A DNA stretch of 64,000 bases from Bacteroidota bacterium (GTDB lineage: Bacteria > Bacteroidota > Bacteroidia > UBA8524): the NCBI GenBank assembly GCA_006226545.1, contig SBGR01000071.1:1-64000 (forward strand), given 5' to 3'. Shown piece by piece: positions 12,501 through 64,000 of this stretch (positions within the stretch are counted from its first letter, which is position 1; the number at the start of each line of letters is the position of its first letter). Position numbers and translations under genes: made by a program. The notes under the pieces are model-generated. The model did no database searches, had not been told where the DNA came from, and worked only from the letters and a program-made list of their open reading frames with translations.

Positions 12501-13217
12501 GTGGTTCGTAAACTATCTATTGTAATTCCAGCCTACAATGAAGGCAAAACTATTCACTTCATTTTGAATAAAGTGAAAGAAGTTGAACTAATTGGAGGAA
12601 TCGAAAAGGAAGTAATCGTGGTTAACGATTGTTCTAAAGACGATACCGTTGAGGCTGTTGAACGCTATATGAAGGCCAACCCTGATTTACCAATTACCTT
12701 TTATTCGCATGAGGTGAACAAAGGTAAGGGGGCAGCATTGCATACCGGCATTGAAAAAGCGACCGGCGATGTTGTGATTATTCAGGATGCCGACTTGGAA
12801 TACGACCCGAGAGAATACAATGATGTATTGAAGCCATTCCGCGAAGAGGTGGCCGACGTGGTTTATGGTTCCCGTTTTATGGGTGGTAATCCACACCGTA
12901 TCCTATTCTTCTGGCATACCATCGGTAATAAATTTTTAACCACCTTATCCAATGCCTTCACCAACTTGAACCTTACCGATATGGAAACCTGCTACAAGGC
13001 TTTCAATCGTGAGATTATTCAAAGTCTGGATTTGAAAGAAAAGCGATTCGGATTTGAGCCGGAAGTGACAGCACGTATTGCGCGTATCAAGAATATCCGC
13101 ATCTACGAAGTGGGTATTTCATACTACGGCCGGACTTACGAAGAAGGTAAGAAGATTGGTTGGAGAGATGGCTTTAGAGCCATTTGGTGTATTTTGAAAT
13201 ACAACTTGTTTCGCTAG
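12501..13217 (+). CDS. GT2 glycosyltransferase, polyprenyl-phosphate mannose/glucose synthase type
   Basis: 238 residues. The GT-A fold opens with [14 protein letters not shown], the acidic pair is in [11 protein letters not shown] (the DxD metal site), and [12 protein letters not shown] is the acceptor-side motif shared with dolichol-phosphate mannose synthases. There is no C-terminal membrane domain, so it is the short soluble class that charges polyprenyl phosphate with one sugar. The start is GTG at 12501; no ATG precedes the first strand. A degenerate -7 box TTTCTTTG lies at 12476-12483. The divergent GT-C protein could use its product. Its stop interlocks with that of the response regulator (CTAG, 13214-13217). 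Confidence 0.9.
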
Positions 13218-39950: not shown

Positions 39951-41495
39951 ATGGCACTGTTTTCCTCCTTCCTTTCGTGGTATTTCCGCAAACGTATGCC
40001 GGAACTGGATGCAGCTGCTTTGCAGGCCGAAAACCAGCAAGAGCAGATGTTGCTCGACATGTTGCAGGAAGCGCGGAATACGGAATGGGGAATGAAGTAC
40101 GACTTCAAATCCATTAAGAACTATACCGATTACCGAAATCGATTTCCGGTGGCCGATTACGAAACCTTTAAGCCGTATATCGAACGGAATATGCGGGGAG
40201 AGCAGAACTTGCTCTGGCCTAGTGATATCAAATGGTTTGCTAAATCATCCGGCACCACAAGCGATAAAAGTAAGTTCATTCCGGTGAGCTTTGAATCGCT
40301 AGAAAAGACACATTTTCAAGGTGGGCGAGACGTGCTAACCATGTATTGCAATGCCGTTCAAAATACAGAAATCTTCAGTGGCAAAGGCCTGGTGATAGGC
40401 GGAAGCCATTCGGTTAATAACTTCTCAGAGAAATCCTTCTTTGGCGATCTCTCCGCCGTGCTCATGTCGAATACGCCCTTTTGGGTGGAGTTTCTGCGTA
40501 CGCCGGATAAATCCATTGCGCTGATGTCGGAATGGGAAGAGAAGATTGAAAAAATGGCTTTGGCTACCGTTAACGAAGACGTTACCAATATCTCCGGGGT
40601 GCCTACTTGGACTTTGGTTTTAATTGAGCGATTGTTTGAGATGACGGGCAAACGCGACTTACGCGAAATCTGGCCGAACTTGGAGTTGTATATCCACGGC
40701 GGGGTGAGCTTTGTACCGTATAGAGAGCGCTTCAAGCGATTGATGCCGAGCAGCGGAATCCAGTACATGGAAACCTACAATGCATCTGAAGGGTTCTTTG
40801 GTATTCAAGACGACTTGAGTCGAGATGATATGCTGTTGATGACCAATTACGGCATCTTCTACGAGTTTGTTTTAGCAGAAGAGATCTGGTCTGATAACCC
40901 GAAAACCTACCCGCTTTGGGAAGTAGAGAAAGACCGCAATTACGCGGTGATAATCACCACCAACGGGGGCTTGTGGCGTTATATCCTCGGAGATACCATA
41001 AAGTTTACAGACACAAACCCATACCGCTTTAAAATCACCGGTAGAACCAAATTGTTTATCAATGCCTTTGGTGAAGAGCTGGTGATTGAAAATGCCGAGC
41101 GTGCCATTGCCGCCGCCTGCGCAGAAACCAATGCCATTGTGAGCGATTATACCGCGGCACCGCGCTTCATGTTAGAAGGAACAGATGCCGGCCATGAGTG
41201 GCTGATTGAGTTTGAACAGCATCCGGATAACCTGCAGAAGTTTGGACTCATCCTCGACGAGACACTCAAAAGCGTTAATTCAGATTACGAAGCCAAACGT
41301 TACAAAGACATCGCTTTAAAAGCACCGATTGTGCGCCACATGCCGCAAGGCACGTTTAAAAATTGGTTGCGCGAACGCGGGAAATTGGGTGGGCAACACA
41401 AGGTGCCACGCCTCTCTAACGACCGTAAGATTATTGAAGATATTCTTCGCCTTCACTCTACCGAAGGCGTAGATGGCTTGGGTATCGATCTGTAA
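39951..41495 (+). CDS. GH3 family acyl-adenylating enzyme
   Basis: 514 residues. GH3 (auxin-responsive promoter family) motifs: ATP motif I FAKSSGTTSDKSKFIPVS, motif II YNASEGFFGIQDD, and motif III region YRFKITGRTKLFINAFGEE. The family belongs to the adenylate-forming (ANL) superfamily. In plants it couples amino acids to hormones; in Bacteroidota the substrate is not known. It is cytoplasmic, with an ATG and a near-leaderless promoter. The last 43 bases overlap, in opposite orientation, the end of the GT-C protein gene at 41453. Confidence 0.9.
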   Translation: MALFSSFLSWYFRKRMPELDAAALQAENQQEQMLLDMLQEARNTEWGMKYDFKSIKNYTDYRNRFPVADYETFKPYIERNMRGEQNLLWPSDIKWFAKSSGTTSDKSKFIPVSFESLEKTHFQGGRDVLTMYCNAVQNTEIFSGKGLVIGGSHSVNNFSEKSFFGDLSAVLMSNTPFWVEFLRTPDKSIALMSEWEEKIEKMALATVNEDVTNISGVPTWTLVLIERLFEMTGKRDLREIWPNLELYIHGGVSFVPYRERFKRLMPSSGIQYMETYNASEGFFGIQDDLSRDDMLLMTNYGIFYEFVLAEEIWSDNPKTYPLWEVEKDRNYAVIITTNGGLWRYILGDTIKFTDTNPYRFKITGRTKLFINAFGEELVIENAERAIAAACAETNAIVSDYTAAPRFMLEGTDAGHEWLIEFEQHPDNLQKFGLILDETLKSVNSDYEAKRYKDIALKAPIVRHMPQGTFKNWLRERGKLGGQHKVPRLSNDRKIIEDILRLHSTEGVDGLGIDL

Positions 41496-43594
41496 ACGAA
41501 ACCCGGCGTAAAACGCATGCCATTCGCATCAAATGCGTAGTTATATCCCGACTTATACAACTTAAGCAAATAAACCTCTGCCGGAAATACCTGATGACCT
41601 CCGGTGAGCAGGTAAACCTGAACCTTTCCCTCGTATTTTCGGTTTTTCAAAACAATACGTGCTTTACCGTCTACCACATTGTCTGTTAGTCCGGTTAGCG
41701 GAAAACGTTCACTGCTGCCATCGGCATATTTGAGTTCTAAGCGTTGGTTACGAAACCCGTCGTAATTCGCGCTTACCCAGAATGCCAAGTCTAGGCTGTC
41801 TGAATGGGCTTCAATATCGCATAACCAAGTAGGTTCTAAGCTCACATGAGGGATGGATGGAATACTTGACCAAGTTTCTGCTTCTAAGTTCGCTAGATTG
41901 CTTGGAGCACTTTTGAGCGGTAAAAAGAGCGAATCGTTTAAGGTCCTTGGGATGTTCTGTTCCTTCAGACTAGCCATTGCCGCCGCATTGCTGTGAACAT
42001 AGTCATAGGCGTCTGCCTTGTCTTTCCAATCCAATAATTCCGTTATTCGGTTTGTATAATGCGGGTGACGAAGAATGAACCAAGGCGTTTTCAAATCCAT
42101 CAACGGTCCGCTGAGGTTATGGAACAGCTCCAATTGTTCCATGCTCTGGCTCACAGAAACACGGCTGAGCAGGGTTCCGAACGTAGGGCTTCCGCTTTCC
42201 ATACTCAATAAGAGAGTAGGTTCGGCCATGAAATTTTCCAAGGTCGGGCTGCCTAAGTTCTCAGAACCCACATGAAAGAAAGGCAAAGGGAAGATTACTT
42301 CATCCGCTTTGATTTCGGCTGACAAGGCTTCCAGTTTCTCTCTTGGGAATCCGGTATGCTGATCCACTTTATTCAGGTAAAGCAATCCTTCAAAACTCAT
42401 GATAACAATGGCTAAAACCGCCAGCACCAGGCCGGGGATCTTTCTACGTCCGGCCAAGTGAAGGAACAAGAATATGTTGAGGCAATAGAAGAATACCCAG
42501 CTCAATCGGCCAAGGCTTCTAAATTGCTTGAGGGGTCCGGCCAATCGGGCTACCCAATCGATGTCCATGGCAAACGGGAATGTTGCGGCAAAGAGAAAAA
42601 CCAGGAATCCGGCCAGTAAAAAGCTATTGCCCAAGGTGAAGGTTCGGTTTTCCTTTTTGAGGAGTTTGAATCGGGTGATAAGGAAATAAACAAAGTAGGC
42701 CGCTGCTGGAAATCCGGCATACGAAAGTGCTTCAAACGTAACAAACCGAACCTTCAATTGCTGAAACCAAGCATAGTCGGCACAGTTGTAATAGGGTAGA
42801 AATACACCTTCCCAATTGGCCATAAACTCTTTCATGCCATAAGGTGCTTCCGGCCGATCTACCGCATGATCAGTCAACTTGAGCCATAGCATGTAAAGCA
42901 CGAAAGGAGCAATCACCTGAATGCCGGTATGCAGCCCTAGACTGAGCCAGCTGATGCGTTTTTTACGGAGTTGTTCAATGAGGTAAAAAGCCAGGATAAA
43001 CGCCCCTCCAATCAGAAAATAGTAGAGGTGCAAGCCAATGGCGGTGAACATCGCTAGAAAGACCCATAGACTTCTTTTGGGAGAAGGCTTATGTGTGAAG
43101 AGGTAAGCCACATAAATGATCCAAGGAAGCAAAAAGGTATAGGCTAAGGCATAATGTCCGGTAAAGCGAAGGGTTTGCGGGCTAAGCAAGGAAATGGCTA
43201 CCGCGGCGAAGAGGCTGGTGCCCCGGGTGAGTCCAAGCCGAATAAAGAGCTTACATAGAATCCAAGCACTCAAGCCAATGCCCAAAAGCATGATGAGGTT
43301 GAGGATTAAGATGCTCTGATTGCCGGGTCCCGGAAGTACCCAAAGCAAGGCACTTAAAAGAGGCTGGCCGTCTGTAAACACAATGTGCTCACCGTAGGGA
43401 TATGACATGCCGCCAAACTTGTTGAAACTGCTGTCGTATTCCTGGTGGTAGGCTACGGTATAGTAGTTTTTGATGCCGTCTTCGTGAAAGCCTAAGAGGT
43501 AGTTGTTTGGATCAGACAGTTCATTTCCATAGAATAGGCTGATCAGCAAAGTGCTAATCACAAAGGAGAGGAAGGGAGCTCTTAACAGCAACAT
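41453..43594 (-). CDS. Large polytopic GT-C-like membrane protein
   Basis: 713 residues: about eleven membrane helices in the first 450, then a soluble C-terminal domain of about 260 that is beta-rich and probably periplasmic. The first external loop has acidic motif LLGFHEDGIKNYY and YPYGEHIVFTDGQPL, the placement used by GT-C transferases for lipid-phosphate sugar donors. No family is certain. It is last in a four-gene operon (45679-48726, 44336, 43594, this gene) and overlaps the GT2 gene by 1 bp. Convergent overlap with the GH3 gene is 43 bp, so no terminator can lie between the two. Confidence 0.7.
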   Translation of the reverse strand: MLLLRAPFLSFVISTLLISLFYGNELSDPNNYLLGFHEDGIKNYYTVAYHQEYDSSFNKFGGMSYPYGEHIVFTDGQPLLSALLWVLPGPGNQSILILNLIMLLGIGLSAWILCKLFIRLGLTRGTSLFAAVAISLLSPQTLRFTGHYALAYTFLLPWIIYVAYLFTHKPSPKRSLWVFLAMFTAIGLHLYYFLIGGAFILAFYLIEQLRKKRISWLSLGLHTGIQVIAPFVLYMLWLKLTDHAVDRPEAPYGMKEFMANWEGVFLPYYNCADYAWFQQLKVRFVTFEALSYAGFPAAAYFVYFLITRFKLLKKENRTFTLGNSFLLAGFLVFLFAATFPFAMDIDWVARLAGPLKQFRSLGRLSWVFFYCLNIFLFLHLAGRRKIPGLVLAVLAIVIMSFEGLLYLNKVDQHTGFPREKLEALSAEIKADEVIFPLPFFHVGSENLGSPTLENFMAEPTLLLSMESGSPTFGTLLSRVSVSQSMEQLELFHNLSGPLMDLKTPWFILRHPHYTNRITELLDWKDKADAYDYVHSNAAAMASLKEQNIPRTLNDSLFLPLKSAPSNLANLEAETWSSIPSIPHVSLEPTWLCDIEAHSDSLDLAFWVSANYDGFRNQRLELKYADGSSERFPLTGLTDNVVDGKARIVLKNRKYEGKVQVYLLTGGHQVFPAEVYLLKLYKSGYNYAFDANGMRFTPGFVYRSIPKPSTPSVE

Positions 43595-44304
43595 CAGGTA
43601 AAATGGGTAAGCCAGAAAATTCGGAAGAAGTTCACTGCTTCCGTGAGCAGGATGCGAACACTCATGCGAGAGAATTGCACATCGCTACGTAAAGATACAG
43701 CAACCGGAACCATCTTCAGACTTTTATTCCGAGAGGCCAAAGCGATAAATTCCATATCGAAAAGGAATCGCTCAATGCGGGTTTTGAGAAACACCTCCTT
43801 ACCTTCTTGATCAAAGCCTTTGAGTCCGCATTGGGTATCGGTAATTGGCAGTCTAAAGACCACCCTGAATGTCCAGCGCAGCACCTTCGAAATCAAGGTA
43901 CGTCGAGCCGGGGTGTTTTCGTAGTAAATATCGTCGCGCGTGCCTACGGCTACGTGGTGCCCGTCTTTCAAGGCTTCATAAACCGCTAACATACTCTCAT
44001 AAGTATAAGGAAAGTCGATGTCGGTATACAGTATATACGTCGATTTCATCTCCTTAACCCCTTGACGAAGGGCGTATCCTTTGCCGTGGTTGGTTGGGTA
44101 GGTGATATACGAAAATGCCGGCCAGTTGTCTTGGAGCATCTGAATATCTGCTTCTTTCAAACCCGCTGAGGAAGCATCGTTAACCAAACAAAGGTGAAAA
44201 TCGTGACCAATCAATTCCTTGAATTCCGAGCTTCTGCGCAAGAGGTCTTGTGCCCAGTTTGTCGGAGGATTATAACACGGAATGACGATGGCTAAGTCGG
44301 GCAT
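43594..44304 (-). CDS. GT2 glycosyltransferase, dolichyl-phosphate-sugar synthase type
   Basis: 236 residues. GT-A fold with LAIVIPCYNPPTNW at the N-terminus, ILYTDIDFPYTYESM (the DxD metal site) and FLFDMEFIALASRNK, as in polyprenyl-phosphate hexose synthases. Compared with the paralogue at 12501 it shares TDIDF/IQDAD-type spacing and lacks any membrane domain. It is expected to load a lipid phosphate with mannose or glucose for the GT-C enzymes encoded on both sides. It abuts the GT-C protein by a 1-bp overlap and follows another after 31 bases. Confidence 0.9.
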   Translation of the reverse strand: MPDLAIVIPCYNPPTNWAQDLLRRSSEFKELIGHDFHLCLVNDASSAGLKEADIQMLQDNWPAFSYITYPTNHGKGYALRQGVKEMKSTYILYTDIDFPYTYESMLAVYEALKDGHHVAVGTRDDIYYENTPARRTLISKVLRWTFRVVFRLPITDTQCGLKGFDQEGKEVFLKTRIERFLFDMEFIALASRNKSLKMVPVAVSLRSDVQFSRMSVRILLTEAVNFFRIFWLTHFT

Positions 44305-44335
44305 GCTGAGGCAAAAAAAGAGCTTTTTTATTAAT

Positions 44336-45682
44336 TTATTGATTGCGGTTACCCTTTTTAGCGGCTTCGTAGTCTGGAGACTGCACCAACTCTTGGTAGT
44401 TTTTAGGGAAGTAAGGGTCTAGCCATATTCTTTCGTACAGCTCCTTGTTCATGCCGTCCCAATGCAGAAGCGTGCTGCGGTACTGCTTGGTTTGAAAGAG
44501 GTTGAGGCTAATAAACAGCAGGCTGAAAGCCATGGGAAACACCAGTTGCGAACGGGTGAATTTGCGTAGCCAAGTCAAACTTAAAGCCAAGGGAATGGCC
44601 AGCAAAGCATAGATGTCGATCATCGGTCTAGAACCAAAGCTGCCACCATACCACCAACACCACCAGCTGTAAACCACCCAAATATAAATCGGTAAAAATA
44701 GCAGGCTTAAGCGAAATGCAGGAGCCACGCGCCAGAGTCGGATAATGCCCAAGAGCGCCACCAACATTACCGGCGTATAGAGCAGCCATCCTTTTCTAAA
44801 GCCAAATAAACCTTTCCAGAGCATGGGTTCGCTAAAGAAAAAGCCTTCATCGCCATACGAATAGAAAATCCAGCTTCCGCTCATGTATTTCCAATACAGC
44901 AATTGCGGACTCACACAAAGCAGTCCCACCAAGGCAATCCACAAAACATGGCTGCTATGCTGTTTTAGTTTTAGCCATTTGGCTTTATCCGGACTGTACA
45001 GCATTGGAATCAGCACCGCCAAGGCATGAATAGGCCTAATCAAGGTGAGCATGCCCAAGGCAAAGCCTATCGCTAACGCATCTTTTCGCTTTGGTTCCTC
45101 GTGCCAGCTCAGGGTGCTTTCCAAAAGAAGAGCGTAGAGGTAGAAGCTATAGACGTGCGACATCAGCCCTTCATCGAAGGTATAGTAGAAGAGGTTGGTG
45201 GCAAAGCCGATGAGGACCGTGCTCAATACAGCCGGGTAAAAGGAGGTATAGCGATTGGCCAGCTTAAAGGAAATGAGCAGTCCTTGGTAGAAGAAGAAGA
45301 GTGCTGAAAGGAGCAAGAAAAAGTAATACGTGCTGTTAAAGCCGTTGCTCTCTTTTCCGCTCATCAAGCTGAAGGCATGTCCCGCTAAAAATGCAGGCGT
45401 ATTCATCAGCGCTACACCCATGGTCATGCGGAATACCGGACCGTTTTCAGCCGGAATCACCCATTCGTAGTGTTGCTTCTCCGTTTCGGGAATGCTCTGC
45501 AAGCTGAGGTCGCGGTAGATAAAGGTAGCGGGCAAGTAACCGTAGTAACTCGACATATCATGCCGAATCACATTTTCTTGCTTGAAGGTATCGAAGTGAA
45601 AGAAACACCATAAAGCAAGGAAGCCGATTAACCCTTTGGTTAACCGGCCCTTGATATGTTCTAATGTGATTTGCTTGATCAT
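44336..45682 (-). CDS. GT-C-like polytopic membrane protein
   Basis: 448 residues with about 10-11 membrane helices. The first external loop carries VIRHDMSSYYGYLPATFIY, where the Asp would be the GT-C acidic residue. An aromatic periplasmic loop WWCWWYGGSFGSRPM follows near residue 345. The family is not certain, but the layout is that of GT39/GT83-like transferases. It overlaps the DUF2723 gene by 4 bp upstream and is followed by the GT2 gene. Its role in transferring a lipid-linked sugar is an inference from fold and context. Confidence 0.7.
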   Translation of the reverse strand: MIKQITLEHIKGRLTKGLIGFLALWCFFHFDTFKQENVIRHDMSSYYGYLPATFIYRDLSLQSIPETEKQHYEWVIPAENGPVFRMTMGVALMNTPAFLAGHAFSLMSGKESNGFNSTYYFFLLLSALFFFYQGLLISFKLANRYTSFYPAVLSTVLIGFATNLFYYTFDEGLMSHVYSFYLYALLLESTLSWHEEPKRKDALAIGFALGMLTLIRPIHALAVLIPMLYSPDKAKWLKLKQHSSHVLWIALVGLLCVSPQLLYWKYMSGSWIFYSYGDEGFFFSEPMLWKGLFGFRKGWLLYTPVMLVALLGIIRLWRVAPAFRLSLLFLPIYIWVVYSWWCWWYGGSFGSRPMIDIYALLAIPLALSLTWLRKFTRSQLVFPMAFSLLFISLNLFQTKQYRSTLLHWDGMNKELYERIWLDPYFPKNYQELVQSPDYEAAKKGNRNQ

Positions 45683-48600
45683 GGCGCTCCGACAGCTGCA
45701 ATCTTCTGAGCTATCTCGCTGGCTTTATCCTTATCGCCATATTTCTCGCATAATTTCGGAATCTCATTCAAGATATAGTTGTTGTAAGCAATCTTGTCTT
45801 GCGCGCCCGGGTAGTCTTTCAGCTTGTATTGCTTCAAGTAAACCACCCAGTCGAGGCATTCCTTGCTTACCTTATCCAATACTGCACCGGCTTCGGCTTT
45901 GGCACCTGCCAGGTAGTATACTTCAGCCATTTCAATGAGGCTTCCATCGTAGGTAAGGTTCTCATGAGGAATATTCTTCTCACAGGCTTTGAGTAAGTCG
46001 ATGGCTTGTTGTTTACGCTCCATGTAAACCATTTCGCGCGCTGTGCGGATATAGGTTCCACGCATCACACGCGGTACCAAACGCATTTTATCGTCCACCC
46101 ACATTTTGCCGTTTTCCATTCCACCCCAAGTGAAGGAATCAACCAGTTGAGCGAACATCTTATCGTAATCGATAAAGCCGTAATCGCGCATACGCATGGC
46201 TTCTTGCGTTAATGGGGTACGGATTGGCACCAAGTGGTAAGTCAATCCATCCAACTGGAAGTATTCTATCAAACCGGCATAGGTTTCTGTAGCGGTGGTG
46301 GTGGTGAAGTAAACCGGACGCTCATAGAAGTTGTTAGCGATAACATCCAACATCACCAATGAGCTACGGGTTAAGCCTTCGGTAGGTATTTCAAAACGAA
46401 TTTGGTCTACAATTCTATCAGCAAACTCCGGACGAACCAATCCGGCTGCCAAGGCTTTCTGCTTGTCTACCGGAATGAAGAACTTCTTGGTTGGCAAGAA
46501 CGATTCTGACTGACCGCCGCGGTTCATCATCTTAGTTCTTGGGTCTTTATCGTTTGCAATAAATTGCATGATTTGCTTCAAGTCGAAGTATTGATTCGGG
46601 TTCTTCACCACGCTATTTCCGGCGTAATACATTACACGGTCGCGTGTACCCGGCCACAATTGCTTGCTAGTGAAGGTAAGTTTGAATGGCTCGCTGTCGT
46701 ATTGTGCTTCGCGGAGGCTCTCCACGTAGTCAGAAGCATTCAGTAGACTCAGGTTCACCACACGTACGTCGGTTCTGAATTTCTCTACGTTCTGCATGTA
46801 CCACAATGGGTAGGTATCGTTATCACCGTTGGTGAAGAGAACAGCATTAGGTTTGCACGATTTCAAGTAGTTGCGAGCGAAGTCGGTGCTCATGTAACGT
46901 CCGGAACGGTCGTGGTCATCCCAGTTTTGTGCACCCAAGATGGTTGGTCCACCAATCAATCCGATGGCGGCAGCCGCACCTAGCGCTAGGTTCTTGCTTA
47001 CCTTCTTTTGTAGGAGGTCGTATAAACCAATCACACCCAATCCAATCCAGGTACAGAATACTTGGAAGGAACCCACAAATACATAGTCACGTTCACGTGG
47101 CTCATATGGCGGCGGGTTGAGGTAGATGATCAGGATAAGTCCGGTTACCAAGAACAGGATACCATTGATTAAACTTCCGTTTTTATCGCCTTTGATCTGA
47201 GCAGCTAAGCCCAAGATACCTAAGATAAATGGCAGCAGGTAATAGGTATTGCGGCTCGGGTTGTTCTTCACCGAGTCAGGCATATTGCTTTGCGGTCCAA
47301 CCAACTGTGCATCGATTGGCTTGATGCCGGTAATCCAGTTGCCATTGAATACATCGATATGCGTTTTACGCAAGCTCTGATCGTCGTTCTGTCGTCCGGC
47401 GAAGTTCCAGAAGAAATAGCGCCAGTACATGTAGTTCATCTGGTATTTCCAGAAGAAGGCCAGGTTATGTTTCATGGTAGGCTTTTGGCCTTCGCGAATA
47501 TTCGCCCATTCTTTATAACCTACTTTATGTGTTTCATCGTTGCTATCGTAGATACGTGGGAAGAACATCAAGTTATTCGGATCGTATTTGATGTCTACAT
47601 CGTAGCCGGCAACTTCGTATTTCGAATCGCCTTTGATGTAGTTGTCTTCGGTTTTCTCTACGCTGTAAATCTGCGTCATGAAGTGCGGGCCATTCAAAAG
47701 TGGACGGTCGCCGTACTGTTCACGGTTTAGGTAGTATACCAAGTTCAACGGGTTCTCCGGGTTGTTCATGTCGATTGGCGTATTGGCTTGGGAGCGAATC
47801 ACCACCATGAAATACGAAGAGTAACCCACGAGCATGAAGGCAAAAGAAAGCAGGATGGTATTCCACATCACTTTGCCTTTGATATGCGTATAGTAGATGC
47901 CACCCACAACAACAACAACCAAGGCTACCAAGAAGAAGATAACACCGGTATTGAAGCCCATGCCCATGCTGTTCACAAAGTAGAAGTCGAATTTAGCAGC
48001 GAGGGTAGGGATGCCCGGGATAATCACCAACTGCACCAAGAAGAGTAGCACGAAGCCGACACCAATGGCGATGATGAGTCCTTTAAGACTGTACGGGTAT
48101 TTTTTAAAGTAGTAAACCAATACAATTGCCGGGATAACCAGCAAGTTCAAGAGATGGACGCCAATCGCTAAACCCACAATATAGCCGATGAAAACCAGCC
48201 ATTTGTTAGCGAAAGGTTTGTCAGAAACGCGTTCCCATTTCAAGATCGCCCAGAAGGTGAACGACATAAAGAAAGAAGATGCCGCGTATACTTCCGCCTC
48301 AACAGCAGAGAACCAGAAGGTATCGGTAAAGGTTAAGCTACAAGCGGCTACCAAACCGGCCAAGACGGTTAGTATGTTTAAGGTAGTGTTGCTGGAACCG
48401 TATTGTTTTTCAATAAAACGCTGAGCGAAATAAGTGGTAATCCAAAAGGTGAACATCACGCACAGCGCACTGGTAGTGGCTGAAACCATGTTCACGGCAA
48501 TGGCTATCTGATGTCCTTCACCGGCAAAAAGGGAGAAGAATCGTCCGATCAACAAGAAAAGCGGTGCTCCCGGTGGGTGAACTACTTGCAATCCGTAGGC

Positions 48601-48726
48601 TGCCGAGATAAACTCGCCGCAATCCCACAAGCTACCGGTAGGCTCCAAGGTGAGGCTGTATACCACCAAGGCAAAAAGAAATGAAAACCATCCGAAGATG
48701 TTATTGAGCAGTTTGAAATTGTTCAT
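45679..48726 (-). CDS. DUF2723 protein, PMT-like membrane O-glycosyltransferase candidate
   Basis: 1015 residues. About a dozen membrane helices in the first 600, then a soluble TPR-rich C-terminus. The N-terminal loop has LEPTGSLWDCGEFISAAYGL, with the Asp and Glu characteristic of DUF2723 and the PMT clan, then HPPGAPLFLLIGRFFSLFA. The human relative TMEM260 carries DUF2723 and is a protein O-mannosyltransferase acting on IPT domains; bacterial members are uncharacterised. The gene is first in a four-gene operon of GT-C and GT2 genes. A degenerate -7 box TATTTTCG lies at 48750-48757, 23 bases before the ATG. Confidence 0.88.
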   Translation of the reverse strand: MNNFKLLNNIFGWFSFLFALVVYSLTLEPTGSLWDCGEFISAAYGLQVVHPPGAPLFLLIGRFFSLFAGEGHQIAIAVNMVSATTSALCVMFTFWITTYFAQRFIEKQYGSSNTTLNILTVLAGLVAACSLTFTDTFWFSAVEAEVYAASSFFMSFTFWAILKWERVSDKPFANKWLVFIGYIVGLAIGVHLLNLLVIPAIVLVYYFKKYPYSLKGLIIAIGVGFVLLFLVQLVIIPGIPTLAAKFDFYFVNSMGMGFNTGVIFFLVALVVVVVGGIYYTHIKGKVMWNTILLSFAFMLVGYSSYFMVVIRSQANTPIDMNNPENPLNLVYYLNREQYGDRPLLNGPHFMTQIYSVEKTEDNYIKGDSKYEVAGYDVDIKYDPNNLMFFPRIYDSNDETHKVGYKEWANIREGQKPTMKHNLAFFWKYQMNYMYWRYFFWNFAGRQNDDQSLRKTHIDVFNGNWITGIKPIDAQLVGPQSNMPDSVKNNPSRNTYYLLPFILGILGLAAQIKGDKNGSLINGILFLVTGLILIIYLNPPPYEPRERDYVFVGSFQVFCTWIGLGVIGLYDLLQKKVSKNLALGAAAAIGLIGGPTILGAQNWDDHDRSGRYMSTDFARNYLKSCKPNAVLFTNGDNDTYPLWYMQNVEKFRTDVRVVNLSLLNASDYVESLREAQYDSEPFKLTFTSKQLWPGTRDRVMYYAGNSVVKNPNQYFDLKQIMQFIANDKDPRTKMMNRGGQSESFLPTKKFFIPVDKQKALAAGLVRPEFADRIVDQIRFEIPTEGLTRSSLVMLDVIANNFYERPVYFTTTTATETYAGLIEYFQLDGLTYHLVPIRTPLTQEAMRMRDYGFIDYDKMFAQLVDSFTWGGMENGKMWVDDKMRLVPRVMRGTYIRTAREMVYMERKQQAIDLLKACEKNIPHENLTYDGSLIEMAEVYYLAGAKAEAGAVLDKVSKECLDWVVYLKQYKLKDYPGAQDKIAYNNYILNEIPKLCEKYGDKDKASEIAQKIAAVGAP

Positions 48727-48760: not shown

Positions 48761-49534
48761 TTATTTTTTGGTTTGTCGCGCTTCTGCGGCCCGAATGGCG
48801 TCGAGGTCTTCGCGTGCAGGATTGTGTTCTGCCAGCCAAGCCATCATCGCCGCTTCCGCCTTTTTGTAGTTTTCCTCTGCTAACTTGCTGTGGTCTAGCT
48901 TAAAAGCGATGTAGTGAATGGGTTTGCCTTCGGAGCGCCATTTGGTCTCGTAAGTGGTGCGGATACCCAGTTCGGCATGATCTGCGTGGGTTTGGTTGAT
49001 GTTTTCCGTTTTTTCGATGAGCGGCAAGTTCAGGTTCTCCACTACCGCCACGGTGAAGTGGTACAATAGCGGGTCGTCTGTCTTCAAATGAATGGTGCCG
49101 CCGTCTTTTACCAGGCCGGTATACTGACGCAGATAACGCCAAGAGGTAAGTCGTTTTCTGGCTTTGCCCGGCTGCAGGTGAGGATCGGGGAAGGTGATCC
49201 AGATTTCATCCACCTCGTCTTTCGCGAAGTACTTCGAAATCTGGTCGATGTAGGCGCGCATGAACGCGGCATTGTTTCGGCCTTCTTCCATGCAGGTTTT
49301 GGCCCCACGCCACAAACGTGCTCCTTTGATATCCACGCCGATATAATTGCGTTCCGGGTGCATGGCGGAAAGTCCGACCGTATATTCGCCGCGGCCGCAA
49401 GCCAACTCCAAGCAAATCGGATTATCGTTTTTGAACACCTCTTTGTGCCAGGTGCCGGCGATGTTTTCAGGAAACTCGTAGGTATTGCTGAAATGCGCCA
49501 TCTCAGCAAAACGAATCAATTTATTCTTGCCCAT
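48761..49534 (-). CDS. trmB: tRNA (guanine-N7-)-methyltransferase TrmB
   Basis: 257 residues, slightly longer than usual with a charged C-terminal tail. SAM-binding motif CLELACGRGEYTVGLS, second acidic motif NYIGVDIKGARLWRG, and catalytic region EIWITFPDPHLQPGKARKRL (the FPDP loop). It methylates G46 in the tRNA variable loop. The start overlaps the end of menE by 14 bp, so the two are translationally coupled. The 34-bp gap to the DUF2723 gene contains no terminator. Confidence 0.93.
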   Translation of the reverse strand: MGKNKLIRFAEMAHFSNTYEFPENIAGTWHKEVFKNDNPICLELACGRGEYTVGLSAMHPERNYIGVDIKGARLWRGAKTCMEEGRNNAAFMRAYIDQISKYFAKDEVDEIWITFPDPHLQPGKARKRLTSWRYLRQYTGLVKDGGTIHLKTDDPLLYHFTVAVVENLNLPLIEKTENINQTHADHAELGIRTTYETKWRSEGKPIHYIAFKLDHSKLAEENYKKAEAAMMAWLAEHNPAREDLDAIRAAEARQTKK

Positions 49535-60597: not shown

Positions 60598-60950
60598 GAC
60601 CTGAGGTTTTGAATTAATGCGATTGCAGTGATAGTAATAGATAATTAGATGAGTATGGTGACTTCTTTTATTGTTTTTGAAGGGAAACCGGGCCTATACG
60701 GAAGTTAAATTATTGAATACCATTATCCACACGTTCATCGAATCGGCCTGAAGAATTTTTAAAAAGGCTGATATATTTTTACCAATAAGGTAAAGTGATG
60801 GGTAGAAGGCTAGGATTCTGTGGAAATATTTGTCATTTTTGTCACGAAATTGGGTTAGGGCAGTCTCATAAAAATACCTGAATCTGGTAATATTCTGATA
60901 AAGCCTTCTCCTTAGTTTTGTACCATTAGCGACAACTAGTGCCCAAAGGA
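60598..60950. other. Intergenic region with a lone -7 box
   Basis: 353 bases with no credible ORF on either strand. TAGTTTTG at 60913-60920 is a perfect TAnnTTTG, 30 bases before the ATG of the PKD gene, but no TTG is found 19-21 bases upstream of it. Nothing else was seen. Confidence 0.4.
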
Positions 60951-63900
60951 ATGAACCGATTACTATCCTCCCTGCGTGCGGTACTTTGCGTGCTACTGCT
61001 GTCGGCTGGTTTATTGGAAGCGAATGCTCAATGTGCAAACATCACTCCTTCGTTTTCAGTCAATGCCACCGGTTGCGGTATTCCACGTAATTATACCTTT
61101 ACCAACACCAGCACCGGTGTAAGTAATGGTGTGGCCACTTATATCTGGCGACACGGTTCTACGGTATTGGATACCTTCACCGGTACCGCATCTACTCCAA
61201 CCTTAAACATCACCAATCCGGGAACCGACACAGTTTGGCTCGTTGCCATCGATACCAATGGCTGTCGAGATTCAGTGATGAATACCTTGGTGACCACCAC
61301 CACGGCCAATACCATCTACGACCAATCTACGAATACCTTCAACTATAGCCCGGTTTGGCAGAATTGTATTCTATTCCTGTCTTCACCCGATTCCTTTGTG
61401 ATTGATGTTTTGGCCTCCGGCACACTGACCAATTATTACATGATTTGGGGCGACGGTGGCATCGATTCCGGGAACTCATTGCCGAATGGTAATACGATAA
61501 GCCACAGCTACCAAAGCTTGGGTACCTATACAGTACGAATTGTTTCTCAAAATGGTTCCTGTATAGATACAGTAACAGGTACCGTTATCAATGAACGTAT
61601 CCCAACCGCGGGAATTATTGGTCCGCCGGCAGGTGGTAACGTGGGCTGTGCTCCACATACGGTTCGGTTTATCAATAACTCATCGAACGTATCAAATGCA
61701 ACTGAATTTCGTTGGGACATGGGCGATGGTAATACCTACCTTTTGGGCTCAGGTACAGCTAACGATACCTTATTCCATACCTATACAGAAGGGCTTTGCA
61801 ATGGCTTGGTTTCCGTTACGGCCTTCAATGCCTGCGGTAGCTCAACTGCTACGTGGACGCCTATTTTTGTGAACGACGAAGACGATGCATCCTTCACGGT
61901 GAATACCACCAACTGTGATCCGAACCTGCCTTTTACCTTCACCAATACCTCTACCAATAATTATTGTACTCCTTCGCAGCGACTTTTTTATTGGGATTTC
62001 GGAGATGGTTCAACCGTGGGTTGGATCAACAATACCTTACCTCAAAACCATACCTTCCCACAAGCCGGCTCTTACCGTGTTCGCCTTATTGATAGCAACC
62101 TCTGCGGTACCGATACCTTTGAGTTTCAAGCGATCATCAACTTCACACCGGTACCCGGATTTTTGTATTCGGTAGACAACGGTTGTCCGCCGCTAGAAGT
62201 GACTGTGATTGATACCACAGCAGGAGTTCAGAACCTGCGCAATTGGACCTATGGCAACGGACAGGTTTCAGCTGATAGCATTGATACCGTGACCTACGTA
62301 ACACCGGGAACCTATAACCTGCAGCTCACGGTAAGTAATATATGTGGAACGGTATCGACCAGCGTACCTATCAATGTATGGAGTCCACCCGATGCGCTTT
62401 TAGCGTCGATCAACGACGGTTGTTCACCACACCAAGTGGGCTTTACCAATGGCTCAACTTTCTTCCACGATTCTACGGTTAGTTTCTTTTGGGACTTTGG
62501 CGATGGCACTACTTCCACTGACCGAGATCCACCGAATAAGATTTATACCAACCCTGGAACCTACCAGGTTCGTTTGTATGTGATTGATACCTGCGGAACG
62601 GATTCTGTTATCCGAACCTTCACCGTACACCCGAAACCGGAGGCGGGCTTTAGCTCAGACACCGTTTGCCAAGGGGTGGCGAATAGCTTTAGCGATACTT
62701 CAACGGTTAGCTCGGGTAGCATTACGGGCTGGACATGGCGTTTTGATAACCCTAGCCAAGGCAGCTCATCGCAACAAAACCCGAACTTCACCTTCAATGC
62801 TGCAGATACCTTCCCGGTTCGCTTGATAGTCAGTACCAACCACGGTTGTTTGGATACCGCAGAAAACCCGGCAGTGGTTTGGGCTAACCCTATAACCTCA
62901 TGGGCTGTTGCACCAAACGATTCGGTCTGTATTGGAACAGCGCAAACCTTTGACGGGACAGCTGCGGCAGGTAGTGGAACCATCGCTTCCTATTTCTGGG
63001 ATTTCGCCAATGGAACTACGTCTGCCCAAGAAGATACAGCCTTGACCTACCCAACAGCGGGCAATTACAGTGTGAAATTCAGGGTAATCAATACCCTCGG
63101 TTGTGCTGATTCCAGCATCGGAACCATTACCGTATTGCCGCTTCCTCAGGTTCAGTTTACCGCCGATACCGCCTGTGTTGGACAGCTTACTACCTTCACC
63201 GATTTGTCAACTGTTTCGCTAGGAACCATTGCACTCAGAGAATGGGACTTAGACAATAACGGCAGCTTCGATAGCACCGGAATCAATACTTCGTATATCT
63301 ACAACTCCATCGGTTCAAGGTATGTGCGATTGCGAGTGAGCACGGCCTTTGGTTGCCAGAACCTAGACAGTAACTTAATTAGCGTTAACCCGCAACCGGT
63401 GCCGGCCATTAGCGTGGATTCTTCCACCATCTGTATGGGACAGCCTGTTACCGTGAGCAATACGTCAACCGGCGCGGTAAGCTTTACCTACGATTTTGGC
63501 GACGGTACCCAAATCACAGTTGGCAATACAAGTTCAGTGCAACATACCTATACCGATTCAGGTATATATACCATCCGCATGTATGCTACCTCAGATCGCG
63601 GTTGTATCGATTCCACCACAGCAACGGTTACCGTTAGGCCAACGCCTTTGGCACAGTTCACGGTAAACCAACAGATTGCTTGTGCGCCGTTTAACTTCGT
63701 CTTTACCAATGGATCCTTGCGTAGCTCGGTTTACGAGTGGTATAGCGATGGCCATTTCGCATCTGCCGCTGAACACAGACCGGATACCCTTATTAGCTTA
63801 GATTCGCAAGTGGTGCGCATTACGCTCATCGCTAACAATACCTTTAGCTGTCCGGCCGATACGGCTGAACTCACCATCGGAACCTCCCGAAACCCAATTG

Positions 63901-64000
63901 CCTCCTTTGTCACCAACCCGGATTCAGGTTGCGGTCCATTGAATGTAGCCTTTGGCAATACCTCGCAATTTGCATCCAGCTTTACTTGGGATTTTGGCAA
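60951..64000 (+). CDS. Giant PKD-repeat surface protein, 5' part only
   Basis: Open from the ATG at 60951 to the right edge, more than 1016 residues. The signal peptide is RLLSSLRAVLCVLLLSAGLL, cleaved near EANAQC. The visible part consists of about twelve tandem PKD-like modules of roughly 80-90 residues; the last is cut by the edge. Typical strands are FRWDMGDGNTY, FYWDFGDGSTV, FFWDFGDGTTS and FTYDFGDGTQI. Most modules begin with one conserved Cys and end with another, as in GCAPHTVRF and CGTDSVIRT. This suggests one disulfide per module. Adhesins of this kind in Bacteroidota usually carry a C-terminal T9SS domain, which would lie outside the window. The preceding gap shows only a -7 box. 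Confidence 0.93.
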   Translation, partial: MNRLLSSLRAVLCVLLLSAGLLEANAQCANITPSFSVNATGCGIPRNYTFTNTSTGVSNGVATYIWRHGSTVLDTFTGTASTPTLNITNPGTDTVWLVAIDTNGCRDSVMNTLVTTTTANTIYDQSTNTFNYSPVWQNCILFLSSPDSFVIDVLASGTLTNYYMIWGDGGIDSGNSLPNGNTISHSYQSLGTYTVRIVSQNGSCIDTVTGTVINERIPTAGIIGPPAGGNVGCAPHTVRFINNSSNVSNATEFRWDMGDGNTYLLGSGTANDTLFHTYTEGLCNGLVSVTAFNACGSSTATWTPIFVNDEDDASFTVNTTNCDPNLPFTFTNTSTNNYCTPSQRLFYWDFGDGSTVGWINNTLPQNHTFPQAGSYRVRLIDSNLCGTDTFEFQAIINFTPVPGFLYSVDNGCPPLEVTVIDTTAGVQNLRNWTYGNGQVSADSIDTVTYVTPGTYNLQLTVSNICGTVSTSVPINVWSPPDALLASINDGCSPHQVGFTNGSTFFHDSTVSFFWDFGDGTTSTDRDPPNKIYTNPGTYQVRLYVIDTCGTDSVIRTFTVHPKPEAGFSSDTVCQGVANSFSDTSTVSSGSITGWTWRFDNPSQGSSSQQNPNFTFNAADTFPVRLIVSTNHGCLDTAENPAVVWANPITSWAVAPNDSVCIGTAQTFDGTAAAGSGTIASYFWDFANGTTSAQEDTALTYPTAGNYSVKFRVINTLGCADSSIGTITVLPLPQVQFTADTACVGQLTTFTDLSTVSLGTIALREWDLDNNGSFDSTGINTSYIYNSIGSRYVRLRVSTAFGCQNLDSNLISVNPQPVPAISVDSSTICMGQPVTVSNTSTGAVSFTYDFGDGTQITVGNTSSVQHTYTDSGIYTIRMYATSDRGCIDSTTATVTVRPTPLAQFTVNQQIACAPFNFVFTNGSLRSSVYEWYSDGHFASAAEHRPDTLISLDSQVVRITLIANNTFSCPADTAELTIGTSRNPIASFVTNPDSGCGPLNVAFGNTSQFASSFTWDFG

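Follow-up and report, generated by a model that had tools for sequence, protein, structure and literature searches.

A TMEM260-like (DUF2723) gene next to a polyprenyl-phosphate-sugar/GT-C module in a Bacteroidota genome: a candidate envelope-glycosylation operon

Gene organization of the locus

The window, i.e. the whole stretch of DNA analysed here, comprises 64,000 nt (contig SBGR01000071.1, positions 1-64,000; assembly GCA_006226545.1, Bacteroidota bacterium). Between positions 41453 and 48726 it harbours four genes, coding for a DUF2723 protein (A), a 448-aa membrane protein (B), a GT2 (C) and a 713-aa membrane protein (D). A and B overlap by 4 bp, B and C are separated by a gap of 31 bp, and C and D overlap by 1 bp, with ORFs, overlaps and gap exactly as given in the original prediction. 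The relevant features are:

45679..48726, minus strand: A, TMEM260-like (DUF2723/PF11028) GT-C protein with TPR-like C-terminal part, 1015 aa (Pfam, PDB profile, AlphaFold2/Foldseek, tree)
44336..45682, minus strand: B, multi-pass membrane protein, probable GT-C, 448 aa (conserved D42 in the first loop, E171, H176, RP motif, WWCWWYGG)
43594..44304, minus strand: C, polyprenyl-phosphate-sugar synthase-like GT2, 236 aa (Pfam, PDB profile, alignment; motifs TDIDFPY and DTQCGLKGF)
41453..43594, minus strand: D, GT-C membrane protein with C-terminal soluble beta domain, 713 aa (model and Foldseek)
48761..49534, minus strand: trmB, tRNA (guanosine(46)-N7)-methyltransferase (NCBIfam 8.9e-69, above cut-off; synteny)
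12501..13217, plus strand: second polyprenyl-phosphate-sugar-synthase-like GT2, outside the operon

An aminotransferase-like gene, a menE-like ligase gene and trmB, the latter 34 bp upstream of A, precede A on the same strand; the run thus starts before A, which need not be promoter-proximal. The order including trmB is kept in relatives, but trmB itself is not counted among the glycosylation genes. The 3' end of D overlaps a convergent GH3 gene by 43 bp. Scanning for promoters and terminators revealed sites no more numerous than in shuffled sequences.

Conservation within the family and paralogy of A

Five genomes represent the window genome's family (f1): two possess the complete operon, one A-B only, one C-D at a contig end, and in one the genes are scattered. 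The order aminotransferase-menE-trmB-A-B-C-D followed by GH3 is kept in G003 (L102), and conservation of the stretch from trmB to GH3 at this locus shows that the arrangement is not a matter of chance. In G001 (L098), A-B is followed by GH3 and C and D are absent; G004 (L104) has C-D followed by GH3 at the contig end; and G002 carries two tandem A copies, with a C-D pair elsewhere and B elsewhere. Overall, A-B adjacency with an overlap of 1-4 bp occurs in three f1 genomes, two of which retain the order ABCD; protein identities range from 41 to 66%. The D orthologue of G003 (G003:C86; L102:7083-9228) consists of two ORFs with a short gap between them, owing either to a frameshift or to an assembly error.

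A second DUF2723 gene is located on contig 33 of the window genome. A phylogeny of 43 A proteins places the window copy together with those of G001, G003 and one G002 copy (support 100/99), apart from the contig-33-type copies (100/97). Judged from these separate, well-supported clades, the window A and the contig-33 gene are established paralogues.

Relationship of A to human TMEM260

The product of A matches Pfam PF11028, the former DUF2723 that presently carries the name 'TMEM260-like', with an E-value of 1.1e-66 (224.5 bits; curated cut-off 24.2). A single-sequence search of solved structures yielded one match, human TMEM260 (9rql, 9.6e-8), and a profile of 43 A homologues retrieved 9rql from the PDB at 1.6e-25 over two collinear stretches: residues 12-234 of A align to 29-236 of TMEM260 (N-terminal membrane part), and residues 558-675 to 363-479 (later membrane/luminal stretch). 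On the basis of its sequence, A is a true homologue of human TMEM260, and the only solved relative detectable by sequence is a protein O-mannosyltransferase. Many Bacteroidota genomes contain a short DUF2723 subfamily (about 600-690 aa) beside the long one; a short member of 606 aa (L139:1077-2897) scores better against TMEM260 than A (7.2e-14 vs 9.6e-8).

The original prediction hinged on acidic residues of DUF2723 superposing on TMEM260, and at the level of the sequence profile those of the first loop do align: D35-C-G-E38 of A pairs with D-S-G-E of TMEM260. Likewise, H50-P-P-G of A lies opposite H-P-P-G, and E145 opposite the Glu of A-A-E-V, in TMEM260. All 43 homologues have D35, E38, H50, E143 and H191, and 41 of them E145. 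E143, invariant in the bacterial proteins, pairs with Ala in TMEM260; the two active sites are therefore not identical.

From a confident AlphaFold2 model (pLDDT 90.4, pTM 0.89), A is predicted to have a GT-C fold. Foldseek matched this model to OST/STT3, PglB, Pmt1-Pmt2, ALG9, ALG12 and ArnT in the PDB, with probabilities of 1.00 for STT3, PMT, ArnT and ALG9; 9rql was absent among the matches listed (library to 2026-04-08), and a viral fold library yielded no match. A literature search revealed neither biochemical data on any bacterial DUF2723 nor a paper using the term DUF2723, and papers joining bacteria with TMEM260 were found to be human-cell or incidental ones only.

Proteins B, C and D

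Of the protein types originally assigned, those of A (DUF2723) and C (GT2) were confirmed, and the GT-C nature of D was borne out by structure search; for B, a GT-C is probable, judged from hydrophobicity and conserved loop acids only. Neither B nor D matches a Pfam family. B has no match in the PDB, and D no useful sequence match to solved structures. A distant B paralogue in L195 reaches NCBIfam 'LA_3751 putative glycosyltransferase' at 9.7e-11 and Pfam PTPS_related at 1.7e-5, in neither case attaining the curated cut-off. The model of D (pLDDT 66.7) is weaker than that of A. Its membrane part matched STT3, AftA, PglB and Pmt4 at a probability of 1.00, and also ArnT, so that a GT-C assignment is supported by a model of moderate confidence. 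The C-terminal tail gave weak carbohydrate-binding-domain-like matches (0.0036-0.027), and a Pfam search with 11 D homologues likewise returned only weak matches of this kind and no GT-C family.

Several B paralogues exist per genome, one B homologue (L116) adjoining a GT2 gene, and GT2s of the C type also supply LPS-modifying enzymes. Together with AftA and ArnT among the fold matches of D besides OST and PMT, this would agree with a service to LPS or capsule, in which A, B and D, like ArnT and AftA, put polyprenyl-phosphate sugars on lipid A, O-antigen or exopolysaccharide rather than on protein. We consider this rather unlikely, given the homology of A to a protein O-mannosyltransferase, which reaches past the N-terminal domain, and the universal presence of A (see below), whereas LPS and capsule loci are variable.

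C matches Pfam Glycos_transf_2 (1.4e-15) and, as a profile against the PDB, archaeal Dol-P-Man synthase (5mlz, 1.2e-12), Und-P-L-Ara4FN transferase (2.8e-11) and sll0501 (5.2e-11). Among curated families AglJ ranks first, at a score well short of its threshold, and C stays under every curated NCBIfam cut-off; a crude scan detected no strong membrane segment. C is classified, by homology, as a polyprenyl-phosphate-sugar-synthase-like GT2. Several kinds of such synthases are matched about equally well, so that the sugar is not fixed and mannose, as originally assumed, is not indicated. The GT2 at 12501-13217 shares 69-74% identity with proteins from other families.

The original prediction viewed the operon as a self-contained protein O-mannosylation system, with C supplying polyprenyl-phosphate-mannose to A, B and D for the modification of surface proteins. 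Such a system would accord with the tight operon, with Dol-P-Man synthase as best PDB match of C, and with TMEM260 being an O-mannosyltransferase that uses dolichol-phosphate-mannose (PMC11292533). It appears quite improbable all the same, since C is almost equally close to Und-P-L-Ara4FN transferase and sll0501, the GT2 at 12501-13217 fits a solved Dol-P-Man synthase better than C in single-sequence comparison (7.4e-15 vs 7.6e-7), and A occurs without C in most genomes, their linkage being restricted to f1.

Distribution and linkage across Bacteroidota

PF11028 was detected in 213 of 216 good-quality Bacteroidia genomes and in all 90 genomes sampled phylum-wide; among 14 control genomes, only Bacteroides was positive. 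D is present in 48 and C (E <= 1e-30) in 35 of the 216 good genomes. Among the 32 genomes having a strong C, 26 also possess D, compared with 54 among all 247 genomes (Fisher p = 7.5e-15, kinship of genomes ignored), and in 20 of the 26 genomes having both, C and D lie within 1.5 kb of each other. B adjoins D without A in f9, f10 and f28, the order C-D-B being found in five genomes of f10. Modules of this kind without DUF2723 are:

Order C-D-B: G013:C7 (L108), G155:C319, G184:C143, G211:C49, G238:C1
B, C and D together: G154:C1, G210:C3
D-B: G138:C2, G183:C12

Beyond the GT2 domain, no family name was found for this module in Pfam or NCBIfam. A adjoining B-C-D is confined to f1; in one further genome, G231, A and D are some 1 kb apart and oppositely oriented. 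A mostly occurs apart from B, C and D, and B-C-D comes back in other families apart from A; the lasting units are therefore A by itself and C-D or B-C-D, joined only locally into a four-gene operon. The notion of a self-contained machine is not upheld by this distribution, and the genetic coupling of a donor synthase to A, expected of a dedicated system, was seen only in f1, A being found without C in most genomes.

This joining might also have created no functional unit, a rearrangement having placed A next to an independently moving B-C-D, so that the genes would merely be co-transcribed neighbours. The separate places of the A copies, B and C-D in G002, the presence of only A-B in G001 and the occurrence of B-C-D independently of A would be in line with this explanation. 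We hold it to be improbable, as A-B and ABCD adjacency persists in f1 at the divergence described above and all four genes encode glycosylation-type proteins.

Genes adjoining DUF2723 in other genomes

Neighbours of A were surveyed at 40 family-representative loci. A CE4 polysaccharide deacetylase gene (PF01522, about 205 aa) is located directly downstream of DUF2723 on the same strand at 17 of these:

L188:7046-7687: CE4 deacetylase
L195:8262-8888: CE4 deacetylase
L197:7659-8270: CE4 deacetylase
14 more loci: CE4 deacetylase

By coordinate count, the gene adjoins A in 24 of 60 relatives, among which it is nearly as widespread as DUF2723. The two genes are mostly co-present, the deacetylase being found in 49 of 56 good genomes, and both are missing in G019, G022 and G029; among these three, G019 alone is both large and nearly complete. 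In the window genome, the deacetylase gene is unlinked to A (contig 51, G000:C51:57255-57866). The recurrent adjacency suggests a shared pathway; no paper on this pairing was found in the literature.

A general pairing of DUF2723 with a donor-making GT2 was rejected as a rule, such a gene being present at 2 of the 40 loci (f10 and f17). In G013, a run of GT2, B-like and B-like genes lies upstream of A, past one opposite-strand ORF (L195:13985-18290), and in G020 a GT2 gene is located directly upstream of DUF2723 (L201:8146-8952). Both GT2s are polyprenyl-phosphate-sugar-synthase-like, differ from C and belong to two other families.

Possible acceptors in the window

PKD and propeller surface proteins encoded in the window had been put forward as acceptors. 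In the T9SS propeller protein, the motif for O-glycosylation in Bacteroidota is not enriched. The PKD-repeat protein (60939-63998, running off the window end) contains 18 D(S/T)(A/I/L/V/M/T) motifs vs a shuffled mean of 6.0, an excess that may stem from the PKD consensus itself. The assignment of acceptors is thus not substantiated by these motifs.

Functional interpretation

The operon is best read as a lineage-specific envelope-glycosylation operon joining two normally separate units, a periplasmic protein O-hexosyltransferase paralogue and a polyprenyl-phosphate-sugar/GT-C module; we give this reading about an even chance. Protein O-glycosylation by A is plausible in view of its relationship to TMEM260. 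In the first unit, A would act in the periplasm, moving one hexose from a polyprenyl-phosphate carrier to Ser/Thr residues of exported proteins, with D35/E38 of the first loop as putative catalytic site and the TPR-like part possibly recruiting acceptors. In the second unit, C would make a polyprenyl-phosphate-sugar on the cytoplasmic side, which a flippase encoded outside the operon would turn over; D and B would then transfer this sugar onto a periplasmic glycan (protein-linked, LPS or capsule), adding or extending a surface glycan. This reading builds on the observed gene order, homologies, GT-C folds of the A and D models, residue conservation, distribution and linkage, from which catalysis, the sugar, Ser/Thr as acceptors, flipping and a joint pathway are deduced. 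As A stands beside B-C-D only in f1, participation of both units in one pathway may be coincidental.

A wider proposal concerns DUF2723 as such. Bacteroidota carry O-glycans on D(S/T) motifs, and in 2022 the oligosaccharyltransferase and the core-glycan transferases were reported as unknown (PMC8729774). Available data favour a core disaccharide that is built on the protein first, with the outer glycan ligated later, and mutants of P. gingivalis retain residual Hex and dHex-Hex on proteins (PMC8729774). From the fit of these residual modifications to an enzyme adding one hexose first, we infer DUF2723 to be a strong candidate. Thus, DUF2723/TMEM260-like proteins might represent the missing initiating protein O-hexosyltransferase of Bacteroidota general O-glycosylation, placing the first hexose on D(S/T) in the periplasm, while other enzymes branch the core and ligate the outer glycan, the CE4 deacetylase acts in the same pathway and the window operon, equipped with a donor module of its own, forms a paralogous branch. 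This proposal is tentative, though possible; universal spread, homology to a protein O-mannosyltransferase, the residual modifications in mutants and the core-first model speak for it, and a literature search found no experimental link between DUF2723 and this system.

It is this wider proposal that most merits experimental work. Should A prove to be a protein O-hexosyltransferase, bacteria would offer, throughout one phylum, a genetically accessible counterpart of the human TMEM260 pathway, and initiation of O-glycosylation in Bacteroidota, which include gut commensals, periodontal species and soil and marine bacteria, could be put to a one-gene test. The recurring B-C-D module represents a separate, uncharacterised candidate unit of envelope glycosylation.

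Comparison with known systems

C aligns with the polyprenyl-phosphate-sugar synthases (archaeal DPMS, sll0501, ArnC, AglJ) over the GT2 domain with its DxD motif, and is set apart from them by the distinctive DTQCGLKGF, the crude membrane scan and the curated scores described above. With PMT/POMT and TMTC O-mannosyltransferases, A would share the GT-C fold and a lipid-phosphate sugar donor, but has no sequence-level match to them, PMTs being matched by fold only.

Human TMEM260 (CAZy GT117), which acts on IPT domains (PMC11292533), shares with A the PF11028 domain, the first-loop D-x-x-E, HPPG, the Glu in a W...E-V motif and the homologous later segment. It differs in its length of 729 vs 1015 residues, A having large extra membrane and periplasmic stretches, and in the Ala at the position of the invariant bacterial E143. 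The general O-glycosylation of Bacteroidota (lfg locus; D(S/T) motif) has a reducing-end sugar that varies, Man in Elizabethkingia and Gal in Tannerella, and resembles DUF2723 in its phylum-wide spread.
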